NCBI GenBank assembly: GCA_009746045.1
Contig: RPFO01000934.1
Span: forward strand, 371,501 to 435,500
Length of the DNA: 64,000 nucleotides
Direction of reading: 5' to 3'
DNA from: Mesostigma viride
Taxonomy: Eukaryota > Streptophyta > Mesostigmatophyceae > Mesostigmatales > Mesostigmataceae
Shown in pieces: positions 26,501 through 64,000 of the stretch; within the stretch, counting starts at the first letter, position 1, and every line of letters begins with the position of its first letter. Below the pieces are notes generated by a model. That model saw nothing but the letters and a program-made list of their open reading frames with translations. It made no database searches and was not told the DNA's origin. A program made the position numbers and the translations under genes.

Positions 26501-29500
26501 CGTTCTGCAGAAAATGCGTTTCTTTGATGCAGCTGAAGGTAGTGGATGACGTGAGCTGTGGCTTGATGCGCATAGGATTGGACAGACCTGGCTGGACAGA
26601 TCCGTTTGCCCCAGGGCTTCCCAACAGGAACTCCGCATGAGCAGTCGTCTATATATAAACACAGGAAACCACATGACAGGGGCACACGAAGCACAAGTCC
26701 TCAACTTATAACCGACCACACGGTTCATGCCAGGATCTTCATACCGCGACTTATACCACGATGGAACAGGGCCAATATCCTATAATGCTATATATTCTGT
26801 GAGCTCTCTATAATACTATCCTATACATGGCCAATATCCTATCATACTATATATTCTGTGGGCTCTCACCCCAGTTTGTACCCTGCGACACTCCTCACTG
26901 ATGCACGTGAAGCAATCTGCTTTCGTCCCTGCATGACACACCCTGGACCACCCAACCAACCAACCACCACCGCGGCCCGCCCGTCATTGCCAACCACCAC
27001 ACACGGAACCACCCATCCCACCACCCAACAATCATCGCATCAGGGCGCCGAGACCTCCCTTCGCTCGGAGAACACCCGCCGGCGCGCCGAAATAGAAGCC
27101 ATCCGGCACGAAGCCGCGCAACTGGACGAGCTAAAGGGTATCCCCCCTGGCACCTCTACCATCACGGTGGCCACGCGGCTCATCAGCGGGGAGCGAGGCG
27201 CCGCTGAGGGGCGGCCGATGCGACGGTCAGCTGGGAATGGCACACGCGGCGGAGGCGACCTGGTGGTCAATTGCAGCAGCCCCCATGGTTTGCAGCCTGG
27301 CACGCCAGACGCCCACGTGGCAGAGCTCGTTGGGTCCCTGGAGGAGAAGGTGGACGCGCTGCGCCGGCGGATCAACACCCTGGAGGTGAGTCTATCACAA
27401 TTAAGGCAGGCGCCAACGGGCCGGCATCTGCTTATCCCAACCCTTTGGCATGCGCTTGCTTGGGGAAGCGGGTGCCCATGGTGAGTGCATGGGACAATAA
27501 GCGCTTATGCTTTTGGAAGGTGCATATGAAGGCGATGCTCCCGAGGGAGACCGTTTGGGGAAAGCACACCGGACGTGAGCGCGTGAGGGATACGTGCGAG
27601 GGAGAGATCACGTGCCAACGGACGATCACACAATGTTCTGGTGTGGACATGCGCTCTTGAAAGATGTGCTTCAGCGAATCAGCGGAGGACAATGTGCGTG
27701 AATGGAAAAAGCCGTGCAAAGGGTGTGGGGGGTGCCCGCATCATGTCAATGCTCTATCTACAAGAATTACTTATGGGGGGTGCCCGCATCATGTCAATGC
27801 TCTATCTACAAGAATTACTTATGGGGGGTGCCCGCATCATGTCAATGCTCTATCTACAAGAATTACTTATGGGGGTGCCCGCATCATGTCAATGCTCTAT
27901 CTACAAGAATTACTTATGGGGGGTGCCCGCATCATGTCAATGCTCTATCTACAAGAATTACTTATGGGGGTGCCCGCATCATGTCAATGCTCTATCTACA
28001 AGAATTACTTATGGGGGGTGCCCGCCTCATGTCAATGCTCTATCTACAAGAATTACTTATGGGGGGTGCCCGCATCATGTCAATGCTCTATCTACAAGAA
28101 TTACTTATGGGGGTGCCCGCATCATGTCAATGCTCTATCTACAAGAATTACTTATGGGGGGTGCCCGCATCATGTCAATGCTCTATCTACAAGGTGCCCG
28201 CCTCATGTCAATGCTCTATCTACAAGAATTACTTATGGGGGGTGCCCGCATCATGTCAATGCTCTATCTACAAGGTGCCCGCCTCATGTCAATGCTCTAT
28301 CTACAAGAATTACTTATGGGGGGTGCCCGCATCATGTCAATGCTCTATCTACAAGAATTACTTATGGGGGTGCCCGCATCATGTCAATGCTCTATCTACA
28401 AGAATTACTTATGGGGGGTGCCCGCCTCATGTCAATGCTCTATCTACAAGGTGCCCGCATCATGTCAATGCTCTATCTACAAGAATTACTTATGGGGGGT
28501 GCCCGCATCATGTCAATGCTCTATCTACAAGAATTACTTATGGGGGGTGCCCGCATCATGTCAATGCTCTATCTACAAGGTGCCCGCCTCATGTCAATGC
28601 TCTATCTACAAGAATTACTTATGGGGGGTGCCCGCATCATGTCAATGCTCTATCTACAAGAATTACTTATGGGGGTGCCCGCATCATGTCAATGCTCTAT
28701 CTACAAGAATTACTTATGGGGGGTGCCCGCATCATGTCAATGCTCTATCTACAAGAATTACTTATGGGGGGTGCCCGCATCATGTCAATGCTCTATCTAC
28801 AAGAATTACTTATGGGGGGTGCCCGCATCATGTCAATGCTCTATCTACAAGGTGCCCGCATCATGTCAATGCTCTATCTACAAGAATTACTTATGGGGGT
28901 GCCCGCATCATGTCAATGCTCTATCTACAAGAATTACTTATGGGGGGTGCCCGCATCATGTCAATGCTCTATCTACAAGAATTACTTATGGGGGTGCCCG
29001 CATCATGTCAATGCTCTATCTACAAGAATTACTTATGGGGGGTGCCCGCATCATGTCAATGCTCTATCTACAAGAATTACTTATGGGGGTGCCCGCATCA
29101 TGACAATGCTCTATCTACAAGAATTACTTATGGGGGGTGCCCGCATCATGTCAATGCTCTATCTACAAGAATTACTTATGGGGGGTGCCCGCATCATGTC
29201 AATGCTCTATCTACAAGAATTACTTATGGGGGGTGCCCGCATCATGACAATGCTCTATCTACAAGAATTACTTATGGGGGGTGCCCGCATCATGTCAATG
29301 CTCTATCTACAAGAATTACTTATGGGGGGTGCCCGCATCATGTCAATGCTCTATCTACAAGAATTACTTATGGGGGGTGCCCGCATCATGTCAATGCTCT
29401 ATCTACAAGAATTACTTATGGGGGGTGCCCGCATCATGTCAATGCTCTATCTACAAGAATTACTTATGGGGGGTGCCCGCATCATGTCAATGCTCTATCT

Positions 29501-32500
29501 ACAAGAATTACTTATGGGGGGTGCCCGCATCATGTCAATGCTCTATCTACAAGAATTACTTATGGGGGGTGCCCGCATCATGTCAATGCTCTATCTACAA
29601 GAATTACTTATGGGGGGTGCCCGCATCATGTCAATGCTCTATCTACAAGAATTACTTATGGGGGTGCCCGCATCATGTCAATGCTCTATCTACAAGAATT
29701 ACTTATGGGGGGTGCCCGCATCATGTCAATGCTCTATCTACAAGAATTACTTATGGGGGTGCCCGCCTCATGTCAATGCTCTATCTACAAGAATTACTTA
29801 TGGGGGGTGCCCGCATCATGTCAATGCTCTATCTACAAGGTGCCCGCCTCATGTCAATGCTCTATCTACAAGAATTACTTATGGGGGGTGCCCGCATCAT
29901 GTCAATGCTCTATCTACAAGAATTACTTATGGGGGGTGCCCGCATCATGTCAATGCTCTATCTACAAGAATTACTTATGGGGGGTGCCCGCATCATGTCA
30001 ATGCTCTATCTACAAGGTGCCCGCCTCATGTCAATGCTCTATCTACAAGGTGCCCGCCTCATGTCAATGCTCTATCTACAAGAATTACTTATGGGGGGTG
30101 CCCGCATCATGTCAATGCTCTATCTACAAGGTGCCCGCCTCATGTCAATGCTCTATCTACAAGAATTACTTATGGGGGTGCCCGCATCATGTCAATGCTC
30201 TATCTACAAGAATTACTTATGGGGGGTGCCCGCCTCATGTCAATGCTCTATCTACAAGAATTACTTATGGGGGGTGCCCGCATCATGTCAATGCTCTATC
30301 TACAAGAATTACTTATGGGGGGTGCCCGCATCATGTCAATGCTCTATCTACAAGAATTACTTATGGGGGTGCCCGCATCATGTCAATGCTCTATCTACAA
30401 GGTGCCCGCATCATGTCAATGCTCTATCTACAAGAATTACTTATGGGGGTGCCCGCATCATGTCAATGCTCTATCTACAAGAATTACTTATGGGGGTGCC
30501 CGCATCATGTCAATGCTCTATCTACAAGAATTACTTATGGGGGGTGCCCGCATCATGTCAATGCTCTATCTACAAGGTACCCGCCTCATGTCAATGCTCT
30601 ATCTACAAGGTGCCCGCCTCATGTCAATGCTCTATCTACAAGAATTACTTATGGGGGGTGCCCGCATCATGTCAATGCTCTATCTACAAGAATTACTTAT
30701 GGGGGTGCCCGCATCATGTCAATGCTCTATCTACAAGAATTACTTATGGGGGGTGCCCGCATCATGTCAATGCTCTATCTACAAGAATTACTTATGGGGG
30801 TGCCCGCATCATGTCAATGCTCTATCTACAAGAATTACTTATGGGGGGTGCCCGCATCATGTCAATGCTCTATCTACAAGGTGCCCGCCTCATGTCAATG
30901 CTCTATCTACAAGGTGCCCGCCTCATGTCAATGCTCTATCTACAAGAATTACTTATGGGGGGTGCCCGCATCATGTCAATGCTCTATCTACAAGGTGCCC
31001 GCCTCATGTCAATGCTCTATCTACAAGAATTACTTATGGGGGGTGCCCGCATCATGTCAATGCTCTATCTACAAGAATTACTTATGGGGGGTGCCCGCAT
31101 CATGTCAATGCTCTATCTACAAGAATTACTTATGGGGGGTGCCCGCATCATGTCAATGCTCTATCTACAAGGTGCCCGCCTCATGTCAATGCTCTATCTA
31201 CAAGGTGCCCGCCTCATGTCAATGCTCTATCTACAAGAATTACTTATGGGGGTGCCCGCATCATGTCAATGCTCTATCTACAAGGTGCCCGCCTCATGTC
31301 AATGCTCTATCTACAAGAATTACTTATGGGGGGTGCCCGCATCATGTCAATGCTCTATCTACAAGAATTACTTATGGGGGGTGCCCGCCTCATGTCAATG
31401 CTCTATCTACAAGAATTACTTATGGGGGGTGCCCGCATCATGACAATGCTCTATCTACAAGAATTACTTACTATCATTGTTGATTATCGACAAGAATTAC
31501 TTTCTATCATTGTTGATTATCGACAAGAATTACTTTCTATCATTATTTCTATCTACAAGAATTACTTTCTATCATTATTTCCATCTACAAGAATTACTTA
31601 CTATCATTATTTCTATCTACAAGAATTACTTACTATCATTATTTCTATCTACAAGAATTACTCACTATCATTATTTGCTAGTAATGCTGCATGGATCCAC
31701 GTTCATGGCCGCCGCCTCGCCTGCGTGAAAGTGTTCATCGCTATTGCTACAAATCTCCTTCTGTGGATCCTGCGTGCCAGCACGCTTCGTGTGTGAGCAC
31801 GGCGTGCAGGTCAAGGGCTTTCATGCGCTAATTCTTACTATCCAAGTGTCATTACTAATATTGCGTTGCACGGCTTCCATGCCCGGTGTGCAAGTGAAGG
31901 GCTCGGGGTATCGTTATTTATAGTGTTGTTGTTAATCTTGCATGGCTCTCCTATTTCAAGTGTTGTTGTTAATCTTGCATGGCTCTCCTATGTCAAGTGT
32001 TGTTGTTAATCTTGCATGGCTCTCCTATGTCAAGTGTTGTTGTTAATCTTGCATGGCTCTCCTCACGCCCGGTGCCCACGCAGGGCAAGGACGTGGAACA
32101 ATTGGACGAATACGCACTGGAGCAACTACTGGCGACGCAACGCATGGCCCTCGAGCGCACCGTCGCCGCGCAGGTGGGGAAGCGAGCGTGGCCTTGGGGC
32201 TTGGGGTATCAGTGCGGACAGCGCAGTGGGAAGGGAGCGTTCCCTTAGGCTATCCGTGATGCAGGTGGGTTTATAGTACTTTTTAAAAAACATTGGAACC
32301 CTCCCTTTCAGAACGCTCGCAACTTCATGGATGTTCTTTTCATCGCAACGAAAGTGAAATAGTTATCCTTTTGCGATGGATTCAAAAGCATGGCCTAGGT
32401 TAGCCATGATGGGGGGGGGGGGCCAACCGTGCAGGGGGCGCGAGAGTGTAGGCCTGGCAAGGATGCAGGGGGAGTGAAAGTCCGGGGAGGGCCAGAGTTC

Positions 32501-41364: not shown

Positions 41365-42880
41365 GTGTCGAATGGTGCAGGAAGAACAAAACGGCAGCAG
41401 GATTCCCGGTTTTCTCGGCAGTCTTCTGGTGGTTCTATATCCCCTGAATTGCGTCGTGTGGTTCGAGATTTATCCTTATTATTGCTTGCAGATCGGCCAC
41501 TCGTTGATCGCAACTTTGCGCAATTCGTCGACGACCAGGCCGCGGTCGAGGATTGGCAGCGCATTTTGCAACACGTCCGGACCATCGTTGTTCCGGCACA
41601 CCGGAGCGCCGACGACATTGAGCAAGAGCTGCACGGTCTGGTCGGAATACAGACTGTGATCACAGCATTAGTCGACCGGGTGCGTGCGGAGTTGGTGGCC
41701 AGGCGAGAAGGAGCTGCGGAGCCAGCTGGTGCGGTGCGACGAGAGTTCGTGCAGGCAGCGGCAGGTGTGGGCGCGCAACGTGCGTTCGCAGGCGCAATTG
41801 GCGTCAAGGGATTTGCGACAGGACCAGTTCGACGTGAGCGACGAGTACGTGGCGGAGCGCTACAGGCGGCTAGCAGATATCGAGGCGGCTGAAGGAGCCA
41901 TCGCTGGAAATCAGCGAGCTACGCGGGTCGACAGGGTGGTCGACAGGAATCCGGAGTGGCGTCGAGTGCCGCTTCAGGAATTGCCCCAACCTCTTCGCGT
42001 TCGTGTGACGCAGTGGGAGGAGTTCGCCTCTCGGGGTTACGACAGTGACCTTGAGGTAGGCGCTGTGGGGGTCGCTGATCTAAGCGACGAGGAGCTTGGC
42101 GACCGCGAGGTGCCAAGGTATAACCCGCGGGGTGGTAACGACGGGTTGTCGCCTGTTTACTACACCAACGGTGACGACGCTGTCATCGCGAGCCGACAGC
42201 GGGCTGACGACGGTGCTGCTGGCAGCAGGGTGCCCGTGAGAGCTCATCAGTGTGAGCGACAGCGACAGCGACAGCGACAAGGAAAACCAGGTGGCGCCCG
42301 CGGGTGGCCGTGGTGGGCTTGACTAAGTGGTAACGCTTGTCATCTTCCTTCTTGTTCAGCAGCGTATATTGCTTTAATTGCTGTTTGGCCACTTGGCTGA
42401 TCTGTAGCAGACCTGAACAAGACCCATCATGAGCGAGAGAGCATCCGACCAACGAGGACGTGGGGTCGGCTTTGAGCGGCGCGGCGCTGATATGGATGGA
42501 CGCGGTGGCCGAGGAGGAGGGCCTGCACTAGGGGACCAGGCTGGTCTAGAGGATGATCAGAGTCAGGGTTCTCAAGGCGCTCAGAACGCGCCAGCAGCAG
42601 CCCAAGCAGCGCCTAGGCGGCCGACCGTAGCCGAGGGGTACGCGGTGCTGAGCCAATTTCAGTCAATCAAAGACAATTGGCAGCCCAGAGACGCGGAGAG
42701 GATGCTGGAGGATATGAACTTTTACACGGACATCTACACCGGTGACAAGCTTCGCATTCTGGCATCTAGTGCCTACATACGGCCCAGTCGGCACGGCGGC
42801 TGTCCGGGAGCGCCATTCAGCGGGGGATACCTGGGCCGCGTTCATGACGCGCCTCAGGGTGTTCCTAAGTGATTAGAGGA
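41365..42880 (+). pseudogene. Element X gag, N-terminal part
   Basis: Three open pieces in different frames (about 41365-41760, 41760-42322, 42429-42872) encode charged helical sequence with SPELRRVVRDLSLLLLADRP and later YAVLSQFQSIKDNWQPRDAE. Position between LTR and zinc knuckle suggests gag. It is cut by E1 at 42885. Confidence 0.65.
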
Positions 42881-43061
42881 CCATATGTTAAATTACGGAG
42901 GAGGAGGAAAGATCTTTTGAGCCTTTGTAATCAGTCTCGTTTGTATTAATAATAAGAGGTGACACCAACTAGGCGTTTGAGTAAACAAATGCCAACTAGG
43001 CCATAAACAGATGCCAACTAGGCATTAATAACAACCAGCCAACTAGGCTGTCACGCCTTAA

Positions 43062-49686: not shown

Positions 49687-50907
49687 TTGAGTGCTAATAA
49701 TGACAGTAAAAGATTTTCTCTCTTGTATGACATTGCCTCAAGGTTGCATACCATGTTTGGCCATGCAGCTCAGTCTTTGCAGGTTGCTAGACGGCTGGGA
49801 GGAAGTGAGTTGTACTCCATTTGCCAACAGGTTGCTCAAGCTTGCAGGTGCAGGCTAGTTGCTAGAAAGCCCAAGCAGTCTCATGCCAGGTCAGACTCCT
49901 ATTTTACAGCCAGGTCATGTGCAGGTGGATATTCAGAGAATCAGGGGTTTGAAGCTGCTGGTGGCAGTGGACAGATAGTTAAAGCCCCCGACCGGCTGAG
50001 CTATGGCGGTCGGTCACGTTGAGCTTGGGATAAGGTGAACACAGAGAACTGCTGTCGGAGCTGGCCAACCACTGGTTTATTATGTCTTAGCCAGCAAAGC
50101 CTATCCGGTTAGCCGTAACCGTTGGACAAGCTAGCTGTCCGTACCGACCCGGATAAGGCCCCGGACTGGGGCCTAGGTGGCGACGGCCCTAGGCGCCGCC
50201 CTTAGACCGGTCGACCGCATCGGACCGCCGGATTATAGCCGGCGGCTTAGCGGACGCTAGCGGAAGGCGTGCGGACGGACATGGGGAACTTAGAGCCAGA
50301 TCCTAGGGCTCTAGAGTTACTCAACTCAGATATGCCAAGTACAAGACCCTAGAGATCCTGCCTGACATGGAGAAACCTACGTTGATTGCTGCTCTGAAGC
50401 TGACAAGGAGCAGGTACCCTGGGTTGGATCGAGTTGCTGCAGTGTGACATTCAGTTTGAGTGCTGTGAGAACCTGCCAGAGTTTCCAGAGTTGCTGATTA
50501 CACCCAGGGAGAGCCACGGCCAGCAAGGGGTGGTGGAGAGAGCCATCCAAGAGATCAAGACTGTGCTGCTGGTGGAGAGGATACCCAGGACGTCATCTGC
50601 CATTGTGACATCTGCATGGCTACGTTCTGTGGACGATAGGCTGAACCTGAGGACTCCCATGTTCTTTGGTGACATTGCCATCAATCCTCTTATGCTGCAT
50701 ACCAGGATGCTGCCAGCTGATGCTGAGCAGGCATGGAAGGAGAAGCTAGAGGCCAAGTTCCTCAAGCTGAGGCAGAAAGACAAGGGCTGGAGTGTTCTAG
50801 AACCTAACGTTGGACAACAGGTTGTTGTGTGGAAGGAGCCAAGCTTTCCAGGGAATCGTACGTGGCAGCTGGCATCAGATGGGGTGGTGACCCGACTCAG
50901 TGAGTAG
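49687..50907 (+). pseudogene. Element X integrase
   Basis: A pre-integrase zinc region (LHTMFGHAAQSLQVARRLGG ... CRCRLVARKPK) and VDIQRIRGLKLLVAVDR lead to YAKYKTLEILPDMEKPT across the solo LTR, then QCDIQF (second catalytic Asp) and QQGVVERAIQEIK (catalytic Glu), with 29 residues between Asp and Glu. A C-terminal VGQQVVVWKEPSFPG block follows. Confidence 0.85.
49977..50326 (+). mobile_element. 350-bp solo LTR of AG...CT type inside X integrase
   Basis: It starts AGTTAAAG, ends CTCAACT, and is flanked by CAGAT on both sides (49972-49976, 50327-50331). Removing it and one CAGAT rejoins the integrase frame as VDRYAKYK. It has no coding frame and no second copy here. Confidence 0.85.
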
Positions 50908-51132: not shown

Positions 51133-51648
51133 GTGGTTGGGCAAGCAGGCGGACAGGCTGCACGTCGGGAACGGCCCGACACCAGGCCTAGGGGTGTGCG
51201 TCTATCAGATATTGTACAGGCTTTGCAAAGAGCCAAGAAGGAGCCTAAGGTGTCCAAGCTGGTCCAGTTGGATGAACCTGAGGTAGCTGCCATGGAAGTA
51301 GATACCAATGCACAGGTTTCTGTCATGGGACCTCAGCATACAGGAGAACTGCTGGTCGGTGAACCAAGTTGCCCCTGGGTGTCTGACTTTAGTGGTAGGA
51401 CGCATCTAAGGGTGTTGGGAGAGGTTACTGCCCCTGTCATGGGTGTGGATGTGACCTTCCTTGTGCTAGAAGACTATGATGGCCCTGTGATTTTGGGTCA
51501 GAATTTTCTGGGAGATCCTGGGATTTCTATCAGAGCTACAGCTCTGAGAAGAGATGGCTGGGGGATGATTCCCCTAGAAAATTTCAGGACAACATTTCCA
51601 GTCAGGTGCAGGGCCAAGCCGGTCAAGGCCGGGTGTAAAGTGGGATGA
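51133..51648 (+). pseudogene. Element X retropepsin-like domain (between INT and RT)
   Basis: AMEVDTNAQVSV carries the Asp-Thr of an aspartic protease, followed by WVSDFSGRTHLRVLGEV and VILGQNFLGDPGISI, the usual C-terminal ILGxxFL signature. It lies downstream of integrase. The frame is open through this piece. Confidence 0.82.
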
Positions 51649-51655
51649 AGGGGAG

Positions 51656-52584
51656 GTGCCCCCAGCAGCCAGTTTGGTGATTCCAGCTGTGTTGCACCCC
51701 AGCAGTATTGGCATAACTCACAGGAGCCTTGCTGCACACTCTCCTTTGACATATGACCAGCTAGTCCAAGAGATGAGCTCGCCTACTTTGTTTGAGGCTT
51801 GGAAGCTCGCCTTCTCCAAGGCATTGGAGGAGTGGTTGCAGTTTGAGTGTGCTGCACCAACAGACAGGCGTCCCCCAGCATCAAGGAAGCTTGCTTTGAG
51901 ATTTGTGCTGAAGAGGAAGGTTGTGGATGAGGTATCAGTGCCCCATGTCAGGCCTGTCCTGAATGAGTATCACGGCACGGGGAGTCTGCTGGGAGAGGTC
52001 GAGCTGTACACGCCAGGGATGCTGCATTGACACGTGGAGAATTTTGCTGTGTCTATACGTGGGGTTGCTGAACAGGGGAGCAGCTATGTCATCAGTGCTG
52101 CTGGACTTCAAGAGGGCATTTTTAAAATCTGATCCAGAAGTGGCCAGGAGGGTGTGGAAGCAGGATAAGCCTTATTGTGTTGAGGTGCCTGCTATCTGGA
52201 AGCTGGAGCTGCATCAACATTTCCTGGTTATTCTGAAGGGCCTGGAAGGACTCAGGTCGAGCCCTATCATCTGGAGACTCATGCTGCAGGAAGCTCTGAT
52301 CAGTGAGTGTGGCTTGAGAGTGTCTTCAGTTGATCCCTGTTTGTTGCTGGCCCAATGGGAGGGTCTGCCAGTGTATGCTAGTTTGCATGGAGATGATCTG
52401 CATTTGCTAGCCCCCACGACCTGGCTGAAGAAGTTTATTCCTGTCATCAGTGGCAAGTTTTCACTGGGCAAGGAGCTGTGGCAGGAACCCAACAAGCCTG
52501 TAGTGTTCTGTGGAATGCAGGCTACCCTGTTCAAGAGGGATGGGGAGTGGAGTATCAGGCTTCAGGCTGGAGCTAGGAGATTAT
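51656..52584 (+). pseudogene. Element X reverse transcriptase, first part
   Basis: Two frames: SPLTYDQLVQEMSSPTLFEA to LGEVELYTPGM, then LLDFKRAFLKSDPE, SSVDPCLLL and YASLHGDDLHLLA (catalytic HGDD). The break near 52030 is a frameshift. E2 interrupts it at 52584. Confidence 0.85.
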
Positions 52585-52971
52585 AGTTAGTCTAAGTCTC
52601 CCGCCTGTAGCCTAAGTGGACACGTGCCAGCACCGCCGGCGCCCAATTGGGTACTGGGACGGTGCTGGACTAGAGCAGTCGTGGCATGGACACGTGGCTA
52701 GACTCAGTATGTGATGAGCCGGTACCTCAGTACCGGGACTGTAGTTGTCATGTTAGGACTGACTAGATCAGGTTGTAACTGATAGGCTAGTCCGTCCAGG
52801 ATCAGTAAGTTAGGCTTAACTTACGCAAAGTCTGGTCAGCCGCAAGTGACGGCTGACCAGCGGTATATGTGCCATTCTATCCTAATGCCAAGGTGTCTCG
52901 TCGTCTCCACACTGGCCATTTGGCATCGTTTGCGTGCACTGAGTTTCCCAAGCTCTCAGCCTGCACTAACT
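52585..52971 (+). repeat. E2 5' LTR (387 bp)
   Basis: Ends AGTTAGT and ACTAACT are perfect inverted partners. Confidence 0.95.
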
Positions 52972-53145
52972 TGCATTAAAAAGCACTCCGTGAGGTGTGC
53001 ATTTTTTGACGACGAGCGTTCAAGCGTTCATTTCGCGAAAACCCATTTCATTTTCTACCCACATTTTTTGAAACAATGGCTCCCAAGGCTCCGAACAACA
53101 AGGGCAAGGCCCTGATGGGCGCGATCGACCTCCTCAGACGAGGAG

Positions 53146-54785
53146 GTGCCATCAGTCACGCCGTATCAGTCGTCCTCGTCCCCGATGTCTGACGACTCGG
53201 GGACATCAGACTCGGATTTGGCGAGTCTGCGCCAAGAAATTTTGGACCGGAACACCCGGGATGAGACGCACCCAGATGACGTTGAGGAGGATGACCCGTC
53301 GTATCGGGATGTTGTGCAGGAAGTGGTACGCATTCCCCTCATGCGTCGGGTGAGGGGTTCGACGCCGGTGGTGGCACGTGCTCCGCGGGGGCCGCCATAT
53401 GCACCATGTGGTGCGTGGCCGGGCGTCACCTCGTCGGGTGAGAAGACTGGCGGGGAGTCGGGCGAGGAGTCCGAGTCCAGCTCTCTCGGCTTGTTTGGCA
53501 TGCAGCCCTCATCGGCAGATGAGGCACGCTCGGCGCAGGTGGAAGCCGACGCTGTTCTGGCACGTCGCCTTGCTGAGCAGGAGTCCGCGGAGGAGAGGCG
53601 GCAGGATCTGCGGTCACGTGAGAGGGCAATGCAGATGGAGGATATATGCTGCACGGGTCCGCGCGGCCCTGAGGAGGCCGGGCCTCGCCGACCTACGAGG
53701 TGGTCAGGCGGGGCGACCTGGCGTGTTTTCAACGTCTTCGCAGGTCTGAGACGATCCCGCGGGAGATCGACGGGGTTCTCCAAGAGTCCGAGTTTTCCCT
53801 GACGGGACCGTCGGCGTCGGACGCGGAAGACCTGGTGGAGATGACACCAGCCATGCAAGAGCGCGAGAAGGAGGCGAAGCGAAGGATGGAGGTCTTCAAG
53901 GCGGAGAGGGCGAAGAAGCAGCGCAGGCGCGAGGCGATTGAGCAGAGGAAGCTGCGCGAGCAGCAAGAGCGCGACAGGGCGGAGGCGCTCGCGGCGAGGA
54001 TTAGGGTGAAGATGTCTCACACCAAGGTGCGGTGTGAGCGTCTGACCCGCGACATGAAGTCCTGGAAATACAGGAAGGTCGCCGAGCTGGCACCACTGCA
54101 GGGGCCGGCTCGTAGGGAAGCCGAGGAGCGCTACCGCCGGAAGCTGGCCATCTGGGAGGCGAGCGTCGGCAGGCTGGAGCGGCGTATGCTCAAGCAGCGA
54201 CGCCGTATGTCCAAGAACATCAAGAAGGCTGCTGTGAGGGGATGCATGGGGGAGGCGGTAAGAGCTGAGTTTGGTTTAATGCCGGATGAGCGGATTTCCA
54301 CCGAGCAATTGTACCATTTTCTGTCGCAGCCCACGCACACCATTTCTAACCGAGATGGCACAGCGGCAAGAACCAGGGTGACGCACCGGGGCGACCCCGG
54401 TCCAGCGACACTGTCGCACCGGGAGGACATCCGGAGGCAACTCCAGCTGGCCCAGCAGATGCTGGACGAGGGGAGGGAGCTCACCCCGGCGGAGCATGGC
54501 AGGCTAGCCGACACGGTGGCGAGGCTGGTGGCCTCGCTGAAGCCAGCAAAGCGAAGGGCACCGGAGGAGGCATGCACGCCACAGCCAAAACGCAGGAGGG
54601 ACGAGGGGAGGATGACGGAGAGAGGGGGGCAACCAGGGCGGGGGAGGACACGGCACCCAGGAGTCTGCACCAACACGTCACGAGGGCGGGGAGCGGCAGC
54701 AGCAGCAGCAGCAACAGCAACAGCAGCAGCAGCAGCAGCAGCCACCTGCAGGAACGACCACAACCTCCAACATGGCCTTGAGTAG
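53146..54785 (+). CDS. E2 gag-region upstream frames (acidic head, basic coiled coil)
   Basis: One frame (from a GTG at 53146 to 53802) is Ser/Asp/Glu-rich; a second (53700-54785) is a long Arg/Glu coiled coil (AMQEREKEAKRRMEVFKAER) ending in a CAG-repeat Ala run. They overlap by 100 nt in different frames, so a 1-base indel or frameshift is likely. No family recognised; position suggests structural proteins. Confidence 0.6.
54683..54752 (+). repeat. (CAG)n tract in E2 gag
   Basis: Interrupted CAG/CAA repeats encode Ala in the upstream frame and would encode Gln or Ser in the others. Confidence 0.9.
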
Positions 54786-55570
54786 GCCCAGGTTTGATCC
54801 AAAAAAGAAAGAGGACAAGCTAGTGTTTCCGGGTTTGCCAGAGGGCCATACCCAGGACGAAGCTAGGGAGTGGTTGTTTAAGTTGTCACATGCGTATGCT
54901 AGTGATAATGTCCGTGATTGGTTTGCATCCCTAAGTGCATCCACACCCATCCATCAATCTGCCAAGCCTATCCAGCAGTTGGTACAATTGTACCAAAAGC
55001 GTGCCAGCAGCGGGGTAGATGTGGCAGAAAATGTGTTGTGGGCGCAGTTCATGGTAGACCTTAGGGCACTTGTTACCACGGGGGAGCACTTAGAAGTACT
55101 TAAGGGCTTCCAGTGGATAGAGTATAAGGTCAACAAGCGTGACTATGTGAGTGACAACAAAAAGTATGTCATGTACATAGAGGGGGATGAGGAGCTTAAG
55201 AAGCTCAATGCCAAGTACACCTATGGCTACAAAAGGCAGAACTGGACCCTACCACCCTGTCAGTCATACTGGCAGGTCTGAAGGATAAGTGGGAGGACTT
55301 CAGGAAGGCAATGGCTTATGTGCAGCAATGCCTAGAGCCATTTGCTGCTGCAGCCAAGGATGTAAAGGTGAAGCAGGTAAAGGGGGAGGAAGCCTCAGGT
55401 ACGGGGCTCTCCAAAAGCAGATGCAGTCGCTGGTGGCCCAGGTAAAGGCGGTAATGGGGGGGATAAAAACAAAAACAACAAAAGTGGGGGAGGTGGAAAC
55501 AAGGGGGGGGGAAGAACAATAACAACAAAAACAGAAAACAAAGTGGGGGAGCTAGCAAGCCAGGGGGTGC
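54772..55570 (+). CDS. E2 gag core (capsid-like), one frame change
   Basis: From ATG at 54772, the protein starts MALSRPRFDPKKKEDKLVFP and runs helical to 55235. The same gag-like sequence then continues in another frame as LSVILAGLKDKWEDFRKAMA (about 55257-55316), so a frameshift or indel lies near 55236-55250. It precedes the zinc knuckles. Confidence 0.65.
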
Positions 55571-55595
55571 TAAGCCAGCAGGGGGGGACAAGAGG

Positions 55596-55922
55596 TTGCC
55601 TCATGACCCCACCAAACATTGCACTAGGTGCCTTTGTAAGGGGCACCTAAAAGATGATTGCTGGAAGGGCAAACCCGACTATGGTTCTGACGTTGATGTT
55701 TGTCCTGGATGCTGGAAAACACGTCACCCCATTGCAGCAGGAGCGCGCTGCACGGCTCCCAGGCACAACAAGAACACGCCAGGGCGCTACAACCGCGCGG
55801 GGGCGGCAGACCAGGGAGACTCCTGTAAGCTACCCTCACCATTTTTCACAAATGGTTTCCTGTTACCTTCTGTCTGCCAAGTGTTGCCTGAGTGTGATGA
55901 TGTGGATTGGGATGGCATATGA
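55596..55922 (+). CDS. E2 nucleocapsid zinc knuckles
   Basis: CTRCLCKGHLKDDC is a canonical CX2CX4HX4C knuckle (about 55620-55661). A second, looser one, CPGCWKTRHPIAAGARC, follows. The frame stops at TGA 55920-55922 and overlaps the pol frame, which is one base ahead (+1). Confidence 0.8.
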   Translation: MPHDPTKHCTRCLCKGHLKDDCWKGKPDYGSDVDVCPGCWKTRHPIAAGARCTAPRHNKNTPGRYNRAGAADQGDSCKLPSPFFTNGFLLPSVCQVLPECDDVDWDGI

Positions 55923-58900
55923 CATGACACTGTCACACATGATGCGTGACCCCACCATAGCTTCCCTTAGTGCAGCAGCAGAAAAGGTAATCACGTATGG
56001 TGCTCTAGCAGAGCAACTGCACAAGGTTATGGGCCATGAGGCTGTGGCTGAAAGGCTAGCCAATAAAATACAAGGCCATGATCTGGAACAGATGTGCAGG
56101 CACGTACGTAAGCACTGTGAGCAATGTCAGCTATATGCTCCTAAGCCCAGAAAATGGCATGTGGCCACACCACCACTGGCTAGAGGCAAACTGGTTGGGG
56201 ATGTTATACACGTGGTGAAGGACACGGTATACTACCTAGTCATAAAGGATGCCTGGTCAAGGTTTGTGGTAGTGGAGCCCCTGCCTGGGATGGATAAAGA
56301 GCAGCTGCACAGAGCTTTACAGATAGCCTTGGCACGTTTTCACCCCATTGAAAAAGTAATGCTGGATCAGCAGTTTCTCTGCATCCAGGACAGGAATGAT
56401 CTGCCCAAGATAGAAGTGTCTGGGGCTCAAGATCATGAACGTCAGGGGTTGGTAGAACGTACCATGAGAGCCATCAGGGATGTGATAAGAAAAATGCCAT
56501 CCAGGTTGGCTGACTCTGGTAGCTATGCTGACAGGGCATCTTGGGCAGCAGGGGTGACTACCCAGCTAAACGCCAAACCAATAATGTCCTCACCTTTTGG
56601 GGAAATCACCCCAACTGGCCTTCAGTCAGGCAGCTATGCTTCAGAGGTACACACTCACTACAACACACAAAGGCAGCACTTAGCCAAGTTGCTGGCAAAG
56701 AAAGACAAAAATAATGCCAGGCCTGTGTTTGAAGTGGGGGACCATGTGTTGTTTTTCAGAGAGGGTGACAGAGGAAGAGCACACTCTGCCAGATGGCACG
56801 GTCCAGCTGTAGTCACCAAAATTCATGAAGAAGGGACTGCAGTCACTATACAACATGACAGAGAGCGTGTGGTCAGCAAGCATAGACTCAAGCTTTATTA
56901 CCCACCACTGGCAGACGTGTCAGGGGTAGAATTCTTGGACATGGATTCAGAGCAGGAGTCTGGTGGATTGATCTCACCCAATGAATTGGCTAAGGACGTC
57001 ATTGATGCAAGCACTAGTACCACAGTAGAAGCTCCTGTGTTCCTCAGTAGTGCAGCCCCACTACAACCCAATAGTCCACCTGGGCAGGAGGACGGTGCAC
57101 AGGGTGAGCAGCAGGTAGCACCTCCCTCACACCTGGAGGAGTCACAAAAAGCAGATCCTGTCGTTCCCAGGAAGTCATTTGCTGAGATTCTTAAGGCCTT
57201 GCACAAGGCACACAACACTAAAGCAGTTGTGGCAACAGGTGCAGCACAAGTCAATGCTGTAGGGGATGCAGGTCAAGATCCTAGTATTTTGGCTGTAGAC
57301 ACCCAAGCACAGGTGAGTATCATCAGTGCAGCAGCTGTATCTGGTCTGAAAATGAAGGCCTCACCATGGGCTAGAGTGTCAGATTTTTCAGGCAAAACCA
57401 AAATGCAGGTCAAAGGTCAGGTGAGCATTCAAATCTTGGGTATGCCCACTCCATTTCAGGTGGTTGAGGGTTACTCAGGGAATGCCCTGTTAGGGGAACC
57501 TTTTGTATCTTACCCTGGTGTTGTCATCTCAGCTGGGAGGTTGAGTGTGGCAGGGGTAGGACAGGTGCCTCTAGATCATTTTAAAATCCCTTTGAGCCAG
57601 ATTAGCACTGGGTTGGATGCTGCCATCAATGCAGTTAAGCCCAAGTACCTCCCAGGTCAGGAACCGTGTGTGGAGGACCTCATACACTCTCAAAAGCTAC
57701 ACCCTTCAGCGTTTGGGCTTGGTAGATGGGATGTTGCATCCATGTCTCCCCTGTCCTATGATGATATTGTACGGGACTGCCAGACGCAGATTGGGTTTCT
57801 TAAGTGGCTGGAGGCTTTTACCAAAGCCAGGGAGGAGTGGGTTGTTCCAGATGCACGTAGTCCCACACACACACCACCTGTGACTCCTCTTGATGCTATG
57901 CCAGCTGGAGCCAAGAAGCTAAGGTTAAAGTTTGTGTGCAAGCATAAACCTCAGGCTGATGGGGGACCACCCATTTTCCATGCTAGGCCATGTGTCACTG
58001 AGTTCAGGGGCTCTACAGAGCTGACAGAGGCTGAGCTTTATACTCCTGGTATTCAGCAAACGTCTCTCAAGGTGTTGCTTTCCTTGTTTTTGCATCAGCT
58101 TAATACAGGGAAGGATTATGTGTGTAAAGCCACAGATATCAAAAGAGCCTTTCTAAAGGGGGACCCTGCCATAGCACAGCAGGTCTGGAGAGGTCAGGTA
58201 TACGTGGTGAATACTCCTAAGGTGTGGCACAGGGATATTGTTCAACCCTTGTTGAGGCCAAACCTGGGGGTTGAAGGGTTGCAGTCAGCTCCAAAAATTT
58301 TTAGGCTGTCTGCACAGGAGGTATTCATGAAGCTAGGGGCCACCTATGATGACATTGACCCTTGCTTGTTTGTCATCCCACACCCTGATGGAATGATGAT
58401 GTTTGTCTGGCATGGGGATGATCAGTTAATCTCAGGTCCTAGAGCTGCAGTGGATGCTTTCATAGCTCAGGTGTCTGCCAGTTTTGAGATTGGCAAGCAG
58501 CTAGAGCTGGGCAAGGAGCCAGTCAAGTTCTGTGGCATGATGCTTGAGTTGCTGCAGCAGCAGGGCAGCTGGGTTTGTTCCATGCAGGCCTCTGCTGAAT
58601 ACATTAAGTCTTGTCTGGATGTCCTGCCTGTTCACATCACCCCTGACATGTGCCCTACCATTAGAGGCAAGCTTGGTTGGCTATGTGCTACATGTGCACC
58701 CCACCTGGCTTTTGTGAGCAGGGTAGATGATGAGGTACTACAGGAGGTAGGAGCACGGGCAATCAAGCAGTTATTGCATGATGGTCCACCTTTGATGCTT
58801 CACTCACTGGACCTGTTTACTCCCATTCACATCACGTGCATGATGGATAGTTCAATGGAGTCCAGGGTAGTTACCAAGGTTCAAGCCAGAGAGGCTGGAT

Positions 58901-59325
58901 TGTTTTTCCTGCATAACCAAGGTGGGAAGAAGTCACTAGTCTCCTGGTTCAGTAGATTGCACAAGAGGAAAGCTGTGAGTAGCAATGTAGCTGAATGCAG
59001 GGCTGTGGTATCTTCTGTCTTGCATGCAAGGTATCTCAATCACTTGCTGGTCTGGCTTCAACACCAGGCTGGTAGCTCTGCAGGAGTGAAAGCACATTTG
59101 CTGACTGACTCTCAATCTATCATCTCTTTCCTTGCCAATCCTTTGGCTGTACACTCGGACCTGGATTGGATTGTGCTAAAACAGGAATGCAAGTACCTGG
59201 AGTCTAAAGCCCACGTCAGGGACAAAGACAATGCTGCAGATGCACTGACCAAGGTGCCACAAGCAGCAGGACCACAATACCAGGTCTTGTATGGGTTGAT
59301 GAACCCTGGTTACAGTCTGAAGTGA
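55654..59325 (+). CDS. E2 pol: integrase, retropepsin-like, RT, RNase H
   Basis: A 1,223-codon frame; the first ~86 codons overlap gag and are probably not translated. Numbered from the frame start: HHCC zinc region (H123, H128, C155, C158), integrase catalytic D183 or nearby, D238 and E268; C-terminal GDHVLFF region about 362-369; an Asp protease motif VDTQAQVS at D549 and LLGEPFVS at 612-619; RT with TDIKRAFLKG (D828) and WHGDD (922-923); RNase H with MMDSS (D1065), AECRA (E1114), LTDSQS (D1152) and NAADALTK. All expected catalytic acids appear present. RT matches Ty1/copia best, but the protease sits after integrase. Confidence 0.92.
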   Translation: MIAGRANPTMVLTLMFVLDAGKHVTPLQQERAARLPGTTRTRQGATTARGRQTRETPVSYPHHFSQMVSCYLLSAKCCLSVMMWIGMAYDMTLSHMMRDPTIASLSAAAEKVITYGALAEQLHKVMGHEAVAERLANKIQGHDLEQMCRHVRKHCEQCQLYAPKPRKWHVATPPLARGKLVGDVIHVVKDTVYYLVIKDAWSRFVVVEPLPGMDKEQLHRALQIALARFHPIEKVMLDQQFLCIQDRNDLPKIEVSGAQDHERQGLVERTMRAIRDVIRKMPSRLADSGSYADRASWAAGVTTQLNAKPIMSSPFGEITPTGLQSGSYASEVHTHYNTQRQHLAKLLAKKDKNNARPVFEVGDHVLFFREGDRGRAHSARWHGPAVVTKIHEEGTAVTIQHDRERVVSKHRLKLYYPPLADVSGVEFLDMDSEQESGGLISPNELAKDVIDASTSTTVEAPVFLSSAAPLQPNSPPGQEDGAQGEQQVAPPSHLEESQKADPVVPRKSFAEILKALHKAHNTKAVVATGAAQVNAVGDAGQDPSILAVDTQAQVSIISAAAVSGLKMKASPWARVSDFSGKTKMQVKGQVSIQILGMPTPFQVVEGYSGNALLGEPFVSYPGVVISAGRLSVAGVGQVPLDHFKIPLSQISTGLDAAINAVKPKYLPGQEPCVEDLIHSQKLHPSAFGLGRWDVASMSPLSYDDIVRDCQTQIGFLKWLEAFTKAREEWVVPDARSPTHTPPVTPLDAMPAGAKKLRLKFVCKHKPQADGGPPIFHARPCVTEFRGSTELTEAELYTPGIQQTSLKVLLSLFLHQLNTGKDYVCKATDIKRAFLKGDPAIAQQVWRGQVYVVNTPKVWHRDIVQPLLRPNLGVEGLQSAPKIFRLSAQEVFMKLGATYDDIDPCLFVIPHPDGMMMFVWHGDDQLISGPRAAVDAFIAQVSASFEIGKQLELGKEPVKFCGMMLELLQQQGSWVCSMQASAEYIKSCLDVLPVHITPDMCPTIRGKLGWLCATCAPHLAFVSRVDDEVLQEVGARAIKQLLHDGPPLMLHSLDLFTPIHITCMMDSSMESRVVTKVQAREAGLFFLHNQGGKKSLVSWFSRLHKRKAVSSNVAECRAVVSSVLHARYLNHLLVWLQHQAGSSAGVKAHLLTDSQSIISFLANPLAVHSDLDWIVLKQECKYLESKAHVRDKDNAADALTKVPQAAGPQYQVLYGLMNPGYSLK

Positions 59326-59707
59326 CTGGCACATTGTACATGTTAGCCCATGACCCCCTGCCTAACACTGCAGCTGCAAGGCTGCAGTGGCAGCTGGGTA
59401 GTTTTCTGACAGTGAGAAGCACTGGTCTAGAAAGTTGGGACATGATGAATGTGTTATTTATTGAATAAAATTTTGTGAGACACTGTTTGGATGACCATGA
59501 CATGCTGGGGCCTGAGCACCCATCTCACTCAGTTAAGAAACCATGCTTGAGACATGGGGCCTTTTTAATGCATCTCTTGTACATGTGTGAGGTGACCTTT
59601 GGGTCCTAGTAGGTTATCTGACAGTTTTTCTAAGGCATTGGGAATGGCTGCGTCCATTTGATGGCTATGTGTGTTTCTGGTGAAACCCAAAGAAAACTTA
59701 AAGTGGG
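59326..59707 (+). other. E2 3' untranslated part
   Basis: No frame; it ends in the purine-rich AAAGAAAACTTAAAGTGGG before the LTR. Confidence 0.7.
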
Positions 59708-60097
59708 AGTTAGTCTAAGTCTCCCGCCTGTAGCCTAAGTGGACACGTGCCAGCACCGCCGGCGCCCAATTGGGTACTGGGACGGTGCTGGACTAGAGCA
59801 GTCGTGGCATGGACACGTGGCTAGACTCAGTATGTGATGAGCCGGTACCTCATACTTACCGGGACTGTAGTTGTCATGTTAGGACTGACTAGATCAGGTT
59901 GTAACTGATAGGCTAGTCCGTCCAGGATCAGTAAGTTAGGCTTAACTTACGCAAAGTCTGGTCAGCCGCAAGTGACGGCTGACCAGCGGTATATGTGCCA
60001 TTCTATCCTAATGCCAAGGTGTCTCGTCGTCTCCACACTGGCCATTTGGCATCGTTTGCGTGCACTGAGTTTCCCAAGCTCTCAGCCTGCACTAACT
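59708..60097 (+). repeat. E2 3' LTR (390 bp)
   Basis: Matches 52585-52971 except CCTCATACTTACC in place of CCTCAGTACC. Confidence 0.95.
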
Positions 60098-60102
60098 ATT
60101 AT

Positions 60103-60838
60103 AAGCAGACCATTGTGAAGGCCTTGCCAGAGAAGATCACCCAGGCTGCAGGTCCTGAGTTGAGAGGCATGTGGGCCTGGTTTGCCAGCATCTGTGGTCC
60201 GTCTTTGATGGTCCATAGCAGAATGCCTGATGATGTGCTTGAGGATGAGAAGCCTCGAGTCATAGCCCGATTGGTGGAGAGTACCCCTGATCTGATTTTG
60301 TCTGCATGGATTGACTTTGCCCAGCCTATCACCTTGGAGATCTTTGTTGACAGTTCCATGGATGCTCGCCAGGTTACCAAGGTCAGGGGGAGATCTGCTG
60401 CTCTGTTTGCTTTTTATCAGAGCAGGGCAAGCTTTTGTTCAGCTGGTATGTACAGCAGACTGCAGAAGAGGGTCTGTATCAGTTCAGATGTGGCAGAATG
60501 CAGGGCCATATGTGAGGGGATCCAGTCCAGTTTGTACATAAAGGAGTTAATGCTGGAGCTGGCTTCAGTAACCCCTTGGTCCTTAATTGCAGATGGAGAC
60601 GTTGCTAACAGACAGCATGGGTATGGTCCAGTTTGTTCACAAGCAGCTGGCCAGAAGCCGGGATCTGGATTTATATTTGGTGCTGAAGGAGTTGGCCAGT
60701 TTGGTTGACTTGAAGCATATCCCTGGCGAGGAGAACCCTGCTGATGCATTGACCAAGCTGCCACACAAGGCCCCAGCCCAGTACAATGTACTGAGGAAGC
60801 TCATGAATGCTGACTGCCAAGTTGGTCTATCTGTCTAA
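60103..60838 (+). pseudogene. Element X RT end and RNase H
   Basis: YKQTIVKALPEKITQAAG continues the RT cut by E2, then LEIFVDSSMDARQVTKVRG, SSDVAECRAICEG and HIPGEENPADALTKLP mark RNase H. A frame change lies near 60590. Confidence 0.85.
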
Positions 60839-61586: not shown

Positions 61587-61912
61587 AGTTAACGCCAAGT
61601 GCATTGGCGTGTTCCTGATTCGGCATATCTCTACGATTCCAGCGGCACCGGAACGAGTTCATTCCGACAAGTATCAAGAAAGTTATGGCGTTCCGACTTC
61701 CCGGTCGCGCGCGAGCGTGACTCAGCCGGAGTTAGGAAATGGGAATCTGCAGCAAAGCATGGAGACTAACTGCCGGCTATTCTTCGAAGTCGTGCGTGAA
61801 TATTTGCCGACGGCATATGGGGTCGACAGTAATTCCTGGGCTGACAGCAATTAGGTGCTGAACCTACGACGGTATTGGACTAATACGTCGTACGCAGGAA
61901 ATAGGAACCTTA
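61587..61912 (+). repeat. Element X 3' LTR, first 326 bp
   Basis: It matches 40417-40690 apart from a 42-bp insertion with its duplication. It stops at CCTTA where E3 is inserted; the remainder should lie past 64000. Confidence 0.92.
61730..61771 (+). mobile_element. 42-bp mini-insertion with AGTTAG...CTAACT ends
   Basis: GCCGG flanks both sides (61725-61729, 61772-61776); the 5' LTR of X has a single GCCGG at this site. The ends match those of E2 LTRs. Confidence 0.75.
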
Positions 61913-62656
61913 TGTCAGAAACCGGGGCTCGGAGGAAAGATCTTTTGCCTGTTATATGACCCAGATATTGCACAAGTGTATGGAAAAGACTTCTTGTACG
62001 TTTATACTGAGAGTGGAAAAACACGGTGCGGCCAACACTGGGCGCAATCTACCATAGCCAACACTGGGCCAGGGCAAATGACAATGCCAACACTGGGCAG
62101 GGTCACACGACCAACACTGGGTCGGGGCCACACACGGCTTGCAAGCAAACAACTCTAGGCACACAAAGTAGTGGCGGCTAATGCATTATGCACCGTTGAT
62201 TTACATCAGACTGACGGCACTGCAGCTTAGCGTCTCTACAACCACGGAAAGAACACTAGATAATAACGACTTTGCAGCCTGTAATCTATTGTCCACATCA
62301 TGGTAAATTGTGTGTGTGGTCTGATAGGCTCAAAGTCCTATCGCCTCCAGGGCGGCACCACAAACTGCGGACCTGATCTGATCCGGAGAGAGCCGATGTA
62401 AATTACGGCACCTGTAACGGTGCTGACAGGTAACGCTTGCTGTATTCCGAGCAACATCATTCGGATTTTAGTACACTCAAACATTGTATATGATATTAAG
62501 TTAGTCAACGACCTGTGGGTGCAATTAATAGGGATGCAAACCCAACAACAAGTCGTGTAAATAAACACCTAGCTGACGGCGTCAATTTCCCCCGCATATA
62601 ATGCGTGATAACATAATGCGTGACAAAAGTAGAGAAACATCGCTAGATATTTGACA
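61913..62656 (-). repeat. E3 3' LTR
   Basis: It contains four CCAACACTGGG iterons at 62029-62125, in the place where the E1 LTR has CCAACTAGG iterons. Confidence 0.92.
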
Positions 62657-62758
62657 CACCCCCATACTGCATGTCACGTATTCTACTCAATGAAAAAACC
62701 AGCAGGAACATCTGCCACGTCGTCAGCCAGTGGCTCGCCGTCCATGGTGAAGTGCGCC

Positions 62759-63568
62759 TCAGGTTTCTTGGACTTGTTCTCCGCCTTCTTGGACCAGCAG
62801 CGATCCTCTGACAGTGTGGCCGGTACGGTGGCAGTGCTTGCAGGTCAGCACTTTCCCACCCTTGGTGAGGAAGACTGATTCGTCGATAGTACCCGCACAG
62901 TGGGGGCAGGCAGCAGTATGATACACTGGTGCACTGGAATCTGAGCTGCCAGCTTGGGCGCGGTGCACACGCAGATGGTCGTCAACTTTCAGGACGGCGG
63001 TCTTGTAGTCTTTCCACGTCAAGTCGGGGGGAAGGTTGTACGCCGCCAGGACGGGGCCATACTGGGCAGGAAGTCTGCGGCGGTGTGAGGTCACCAGGAT
63101 AGAATCATGGAGTTTATTGTTGCTTAATTTATTATATTCCAGGTACTTTCGTTCGGTGAGATTGATATTTGCAGGAACAGAATCCATGGGAATCTGCTCA
63201 GCTGACAGCAGTTCCTCAAGTGTCGCGGCCTGATGGGTGGATGTCGTTTCGTCATGTCCATAGACGTCAACCAGGACGGTCCACGCCTCGTGCATATACT
63301 TGTTGGGGGCCGTAGCGGCATGCAGTAGCGCGTTGCCGTCGAGGCCAGCAATCAGGGCAGCATAACCAATTTTTTGCTGCTTTACCACGATCGGATCCTT
63401 TCCGGCTCGTACATCTGAATATCCGAGGGCGTCAAATTGCCCTTCCGCCTTGATTCGGAATCCGGTGAATTTCTTGGGGTCGCTCCCATCGAAGTTGAGA
63501 TTCTTGAGAGCACTAAGAACGCTGCTCTCCTTGACGTCTCGTGCCACAGCTGGCGCACCTCCCAACAT
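62759..63568 (-). CDS. E3 gag
   Basis: A 269-codon frame starts ATG (MLGGAPAVARDVKESSVLSA), includes NLTERKYLEYNKLSNNKLHD, and reaches CKHCHRTGHT of the CCHC knuckle. The frame then shifts: the other frame reads SEDRCWSKK, which supplies the missing Cys. So gag is probably broken by a 1-base change at the knuckle near 62815. Function: capsid/nucleocapsid. Confidence 0.85.
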   Translation of the reverse strand: MLGGAPAVARDVKESSVLSALKNLNFDGSDPKKFTGFRIKAEGQFDALGYSDVRAGKDPIVVKQQKIGYAALIAGLDGNALLHAATAPNKYMHEAWTVLVDVYGHDETTSTHQAATLEELLSAEQIPMDSVPANINLTERKYLEYNKLSNNKLHDSILVTSHRRRLPAQYGPVLAAYNLPPDLTWKDYKTAVLKVDDHLRVHRAQAGSSDSSAPVYHTAACPHCAGTIDESVFLTKGGKVLTCKHCHRTGHTVRGSLLVQEGGEQVQET

Positions 63569-63917
63569 GTTCTTGATTGCGTTGGAGATTTGTAATGTGA
63601 AGTAAAGTGTGATTTAATCTCTCCAGAGATACTGCGTTGTTGTCGAGCAGATCCTGTAGATTTCTGATTGAAAAGTCTGGAAGTTCGCTGAAACACACAC
63701 AGTTGAAAAATTCTTGTCGAATGCCACCGTCGCAGGAGCCAGCGGCAGTAGGCTGATTCAGGAAACACGCCCGGGAAGATGTCTTCAACTTGGGCAAAAA
63801 GCAGATTTGCTCTTGCGAGGTAGTCTGGGCAAGATTCTTCGGGAAATTGAAAAAGCTCAATTCCAGATCTCAGGTTGCGGTCGTTGGGAACTGGAAAATA
63901 TGGGTTCATAGGCATCA

Positions 63918-63934
63918 CTCGCTACTCGATACCA
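63918..63934 (-). promoter_or_regulatory. E3 primer binding site
   Basis: TGGTATCGAGTAGCGAG on the - strand, next to the LTR; compare E1. Confidence 0.7.
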
Positions 63935-64000
63935 TGTCAGAAACCGGGGCTCGGAGGAAAGATCTTTTGCCTGTTATGACCCAGATATTGCACAAGTGTA
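63935..64000 (-). repeat. E3 5' LTR, partial
   Basis: Sixty-six bases match the left LTR with a 2-bp indel; the rest is outside the window. Confidence 0.93.

Follow-up and report, generated by a model that had tools for sequence, protein, structure and literature searches.

The stretch of DNA analysed here (the window) comprises 64,000 nucleotides of Mesostigma viride (GCA_009746045.1, contig RPFO01000934.1, 371,501 to 435,500, forward strand). At 52585-60097 it carries a long terminal repeat (LTR) retrotransposon, E2, which sits inside another element, X, that picks up again at 60098. In sequence, the pol of E2 encodes an integrase, a retropepsin-like domain, a reverse transcriptase (RT) and an RNase H, in that succession and in a single open frame. 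We think that E2 and two further families, M2 and X, probably make up a distinct lineage of LTR retrotransposons, derived from copia, in which the protease of pol follows the integrase and precedes the RT and RNase H. The features of E2 are the following:

52585..52971, plus strand: 5' LTR, starting AGTTAG and ending CTAACT
59708..60097, plus strand: 3' LTR
52580..52584 (left) and 60098-60102 (right, within element X), no strand: target site duplication ATTAT
53077..55650, plus strand: gag region, split over several frames in the window copy
55620..55661, plus strand: zinc knuckle CTRCLCKGHLKDDC (CCHC), in a frame that differs from that of pol in the window copy
55651..59325, plus strand: pol open frame of 1224 amino acids (P0002), spanning the whole interval treated in an earlier note on this DNA
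56020..56908, plus strand: integrase, with HHCC from residue 124 and D184/D239/E269 (P0002 numbering)
57268..57600, plus strand: retropepsin-like protease, residues about 540-650
57898..58620 (limits approximate), plus strand: copia-type RT, with HGDD (residue 921) at 58411-58422
58621..59295 (limits approximate), plus strand: copia-type RNase H, last residues NAADALTK, ending near residue 1215

The LTRs of E2 (387 and 390 bp) differ by one mismatch and one 3-base gap. In another copy of the family, a single frame extends from the gag end across two zinc-knuckle-like motifs and pol as far as RNase H. Within the protease, D550-T551-Q552-A553 lies at 57298-57309 and LLGEPF (residue 613) at 57487-57504. 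The integrase piece matches the Pfam family rve (E=6e-06, under the curated cut-off) and the RT piece matches RVT_2 (E=2.5e-07), where its 31.0 bits fall just short of the curated 31.6. Residue positions bear out the earlier note, which had placed a retropepsin-like domain between integrase and RT both in E2, in one frame, and in X, of which the window holds these parts:

49690..50907, plus strand: integrase pieces of X, a broken copy
51295..51600 (about), plus strand: retropepsin-like domain of X, VDTNAQVS ... ILGQNFL
51963..52583, plus strand: RT piece of X, interrupted by E2
60098..60838, plus strand: RNase H part of X, resuming to the right of E2

The order integrase, protease, RT is preserved in this copy of X, with its frames broken. 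Searches of the 440-Mb assembly, whose match counts are lower bounds because only the best candidates were scored, returned at least 43 rows for the E2 family (window copy included), 33 of which span query positions 1-1101 free of stops. M2 was found via P0004, a EukProt entry labelled jgi/Mesvir1 that shares 43% identity with E2 across the searched region and has copies in this genome that match it at 100%. It has at least 71 rows, 15 of them stop-free across query positions 1-699 (protease to RNase H); the integrase lies upstream of the protease in three copies that were fetched (L009, L011 and L029), and L029 has a pol frame of 1249 amino acids. For X there are at least 38 rows, all 38 stop-free, with a pol frame of 1196 amino acids and a relative with an open frame (L036). 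Between E2 and M2, identity is 43% in the protease, 47% in the RT, 42% in the RNase H, 35% in the integrase and 22% in the linker from integrase to protease. The same pol order is found in P0006 (1214 amino acids, from a 6224-base ENA contig), which has matches 63-64% identical in this genome; no relatives of P0006 were found in viral_contigs or genome_contigs. Gag frames are broken in several of the fetched copies, yet the order occurs in three families with many copies. The earlier note had also proposed looking in other algae. Two EukProt entries labelled Prorocentrum lima resemble E2: P0013 is 70% identical to it over 13% of the query and extends from the end of the integrase into the protease, and P0010 is 63% identical over 42%. 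The two are partial, separate entries that may be resident, transferred or contamination.

In the Mesostigma gene model P0003, likely an annotation fusion, a piece of RNase H with 84% identity to E2 is attached to a long stretch of unrelated sequence. At window 42374-42885 lies a fragment that matches the 5' part of the X family at 83% identity. On the minus strand, 62759-63613 carries a gag-like element (window 61912-64000) that is also present next to a further X copy (L037:6190-8401), where the relative orientation is reversed.

The structure prediction envisaged in the earlier note was run on the middle domain. Among the matches listed for the model mba0a8b4a1429 (predicted local distance difference test, pLDDT, block means 71-85 over residues 41-140 and 63.7 overall; predicted template modelling score 0.55), all 50 Foldseek rows and all 50 VIA rows are retropepsins or DDI1, the best being DDI1 and retroviral proteases. 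A first model, of three sequences, with a mean pLDDT of 47, is used as support only and has the foamy virus protease-RT among its fold matches. By these models the middle domain is predicted to have a retropepsin fold. Besides the predicted fold, it has in common with retropepsins (retroviral proteases and the RVP domain of DDI1) the catalytic D-T, the alanine after the third residue and an ILG-like second half. It differs at the third residue itself, where the glycine of D-T-G-A, or more generally of D-[TS]-G-[AS], is replaced by Q, N or M. Because the motif is D-T-[QNM]-A and not D-T-G-A, proteolytic activity is something that we infer for this domain.

Several observations weigh against the proposed reading. 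The altered motif is found in all six proteases of the group. The search with profile hidden Markov models suggested in the earlier note did match a protease family, gag-asp_proteas, with E 0.12 when the long protein was searched and 0.0054 when the domain was searched by itself, but only under the curated cut-off of Pfam; across the pieces of the permuted families, matches to the middle domain were under the cut-off or absent. A profile spanning protease, RT and RNase H gave six PDB matches at E<=10, none of them to a retroviral enzyme. Finally, a looser motif scan picked up D-T-S-S in the gag of M2 and D-S-G-S inside the integrase of E2. The substituted residue and the Pfam results are what would be expected if the order were real and the domain a retropepsin fold devoid of protease activity, serving a structural or binding role, with the polyprotein cut by another enzyme or left uncut. 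We regard this as unlikely. The D, T and A and a downstream V-S are invariant in all six proteases, conservation of the domain between E2 and M2 equals that of the RT, and no other protease was found in the upstream frames. Moreover, the glycine is also missing from the active site (DSAA) in two of the three canonical copia families of this genome, one of which has LTRs identical over 778 bp. Pol_BBD, the copia protease, is absent from the Pfam results on the permuted-family pieces and was seen in both canonical pol proteins scanned; judged in this way, the protease differs in type from that of the canonical copia elements of the same genome. Compared by profile with gypsy and copia proteases from the same genome, it gives matches too weak to point to an origin.

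Profile comparison assigns the RT-RNase H of the group to the copia type: it aligns with that of canonical copia elements nearly end to end (probability 98.8, E 4e-17, 445 columns). The M2 RT alone has no Pfam match. A tree of ten RT rows, the group and three local copias, with a midpoint root for drawing only, splits the seven group members from the copias with support 100/100 and long branches. The full order is documented in E2, M2, the X family and P0006, four of the seven; P0005 shows only a protease before its RT, and P0008 and P0010 are sequences without protease or integrase. The integrase is far removed from both types, its profile matching neither local copia (0.3) nor gypsy (3.6) significantly, whereas copia and gypsy integrases match each other at 92.1; against PDB it gave no match at E<=1. 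The second and third catalytic positions are separated by 29 residues in E2, M2, X and P0006 and by 35 in the canonical copia families (L033-L035), as in the DD35E of Ty1/copia. As an observation on its own, the third catalytic position of the M2 integrase (L029:2731-6477) is D, not E (GLIDRH), in many near-identical copies; GLIDRH was found in 17 of the 20 M2 loci fetched, some of which may end before the motif.

It is very improbable that the group consists of Ty3/gypsy elements whose integrase has shifted to the start of pol, that is, a circular permutation of the gypsy order protease, RT, RNase H, integrase, seen in L050 of this genome. The fold matches to DDI1 and retroviral proteases would suit such an origin, as would the C-terminal end of the E2 integrase, which we take to resemble the gypsy GPY/F module, and a weak match to PF17921 (E 0.78). 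Yet the RT-RNase H matches copia instead. The direct comparison with the local gypsy RT (0.2) has low power and says little, because canonical copia RT also fails it (0.3), and the integrase sides with neither.

This genome has many canonical copia elements, and the loose motifs above might be taken to mean that the elements are canonical copia with the true protease upstream of the integrase and the middle domain an extra. This is slightly less credible still, and for the fetched copies it is disfavoured. In nine frames (E2 family, M2, X family and P0006) scanned ahead of the integrase HHCC or across gag, D-[TS]-[GA] does not occur, and none of seven pieces, from gag or from zinc knuckle to integrase, matches an aspartic-protease family in Pfam; the M2 gag piece with the loose D-T-S-S has no Pfam protease match either. 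In the controls, by contrast, a protease motif lies upstream of the integrase in all three canonical families, and the same Pfam library detects Pol_BBD, followed by rve, SH3_retrovirus and RVT_2, in both that were scanned (L033 and L034). The absence of anything protease-like between zinc knuckle and integrase, remarked on in the earlier note, thus holds in these copies. A local rearrangement, which the earlier note had discounted, or a misassembly of the window, of either of which the broken gag frames might be a sign, is refuted by dozens of copies on different contigs in three families, along with P0006 and the P. lima entries.

The ends of the elements set the group apart as well. LTRs and primer sites were compared in two E2 copies, one M2 copy and one X-family copy, with one canonical copia copy as the control. 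Target duplications are CACAC in the second E2-family copy, ACGCT in M2 (LTR AGTTG...CAACT) and GTGCG in X (LTR ends AGTTAACG...CGTTAACT); the X LTRs come from another X copy, while neither the window nor L037, whose X copies both look interrupted, yielded any. The control has LTR TGTTGG...CCAACA, duplication CTCAC and primer site TGGTATCGGAGG. In the copies examined, the LTRs of the group thus end in AGTT...AACT instead of TG...CA, and the TGG of a primer site of the initiator methionine transfer RNA (tRNA-iMet) type is absent after the 5' LTR in all three families (TGCATTA, TGTATTC, CAAATTA). Reverse complements of the primer-site regions (window 52972-52990; L029 about 1482; L044 about 1627) resemble anticodon loops, and priming by a half-tRNA as in copia would be a guess. 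In the fetched copies of M2 and X, gag and pol are in the same frame, separated by a single TGA (TGA-CGT at L029:2728-2730; TGA-CTT at L037:2344-2346). Since TGA followed by C is a leaky stop context, readthrough at both junctions seems likely. A frame of exactly 1249 recurs in 13 of the 71 M2 rows, which fits a conserved stop at the junction; among other M2 loci inspected for this stop, none extended as far as it.

Taken with Ty1/copia (Pseudoviridae), the group has in common the type of RT and RNase H, a gag with zinc knuckles, LTRs and 5-bp duplications; the Ty1/copia order, however, is protease, integrase, RT, RNase H. As a copia-derived lineage, the elements would replicate in copia fashion, through RNA, reverse transcription and integration with 5-bp target duplications, their integrase recognizing the unusual AGTT...AACT ends. 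Pol starts with the integrase, and the protease would appear only within Gag-Pol, in M2 and X via TGA readthrough. It presumably acts as a homodimer with D550-T551 as the catalytic pair. Because the linker is variable and the protease lies near the RT, with only a short stretch between them, it seems plausible that cleavage occurs in the linker and that the protease remains joined to the RT. The foamy virus PR-RT, in which the protease likewise directly precedes the RT, offers a parallel for such joining, although order and RT are retroviral there.

Two tandem arrays lie elsewhere in the window. One, of TGGAATGGG at 20112-23628 (about 391 copies, 98% match), has extreme GC skew and gives rise to spurious long open reading frames on both strands. 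The second, at 27726-31470, has a 48-base unit with higher-order periods of 81-367 bases, and yields spurious frames and Pfam matches.

The earlier note had set the order against the two known from Ty1/copia and Ty3/gypsy. Neither equals that of the group, but permuted pol genes were already known from Gmr1-like gypsy elements. The title of a 2002 article by Goodwin & Poulter reportedly calls the Gmr1 order copia-like, hence with the protease first. Gmr1 is the closest known permutation, though another order: it combines a gypsy RT with protease, integrase, RT, whereas the group combines a copia RT with integrase, protease, RT. In Gmr1-like elements the integrase is upstream of the RT (PMC3587641). 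No published description of the order integrase, protease, RT was found in a search limited to open-licence literature. A wider reading, possible but slightly on the doubtful side, is that of a separate major LTR lineage, deeply split from the Ty1/copia elements known so far, with replacement or remodelling of all three of protease, integrase and LTR ends. The protease would have come from a non-copia source to lie between integrase and RT, the integrase would work on AGTT...AACT, and the hosts would be distant algae (a streptophyte and possibly a dinoflagellate).

Superfamilies of LTR retrotransposons are defined partly through pol order. Unlike the orders of the standard groups, a protease between integrase and RT widens the known architectures of these elements. 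A survey of plant elements names the two standard orders and discarded other ones as mispredictions (PMC6317226). Classifiers based on order would misfile or drop elements such as E2, M2 and X. The group shows that the place and type of the protease can shift along with the integrase spacing and the LTR ends, and it offers a natural test of the effect of protease position on processing.
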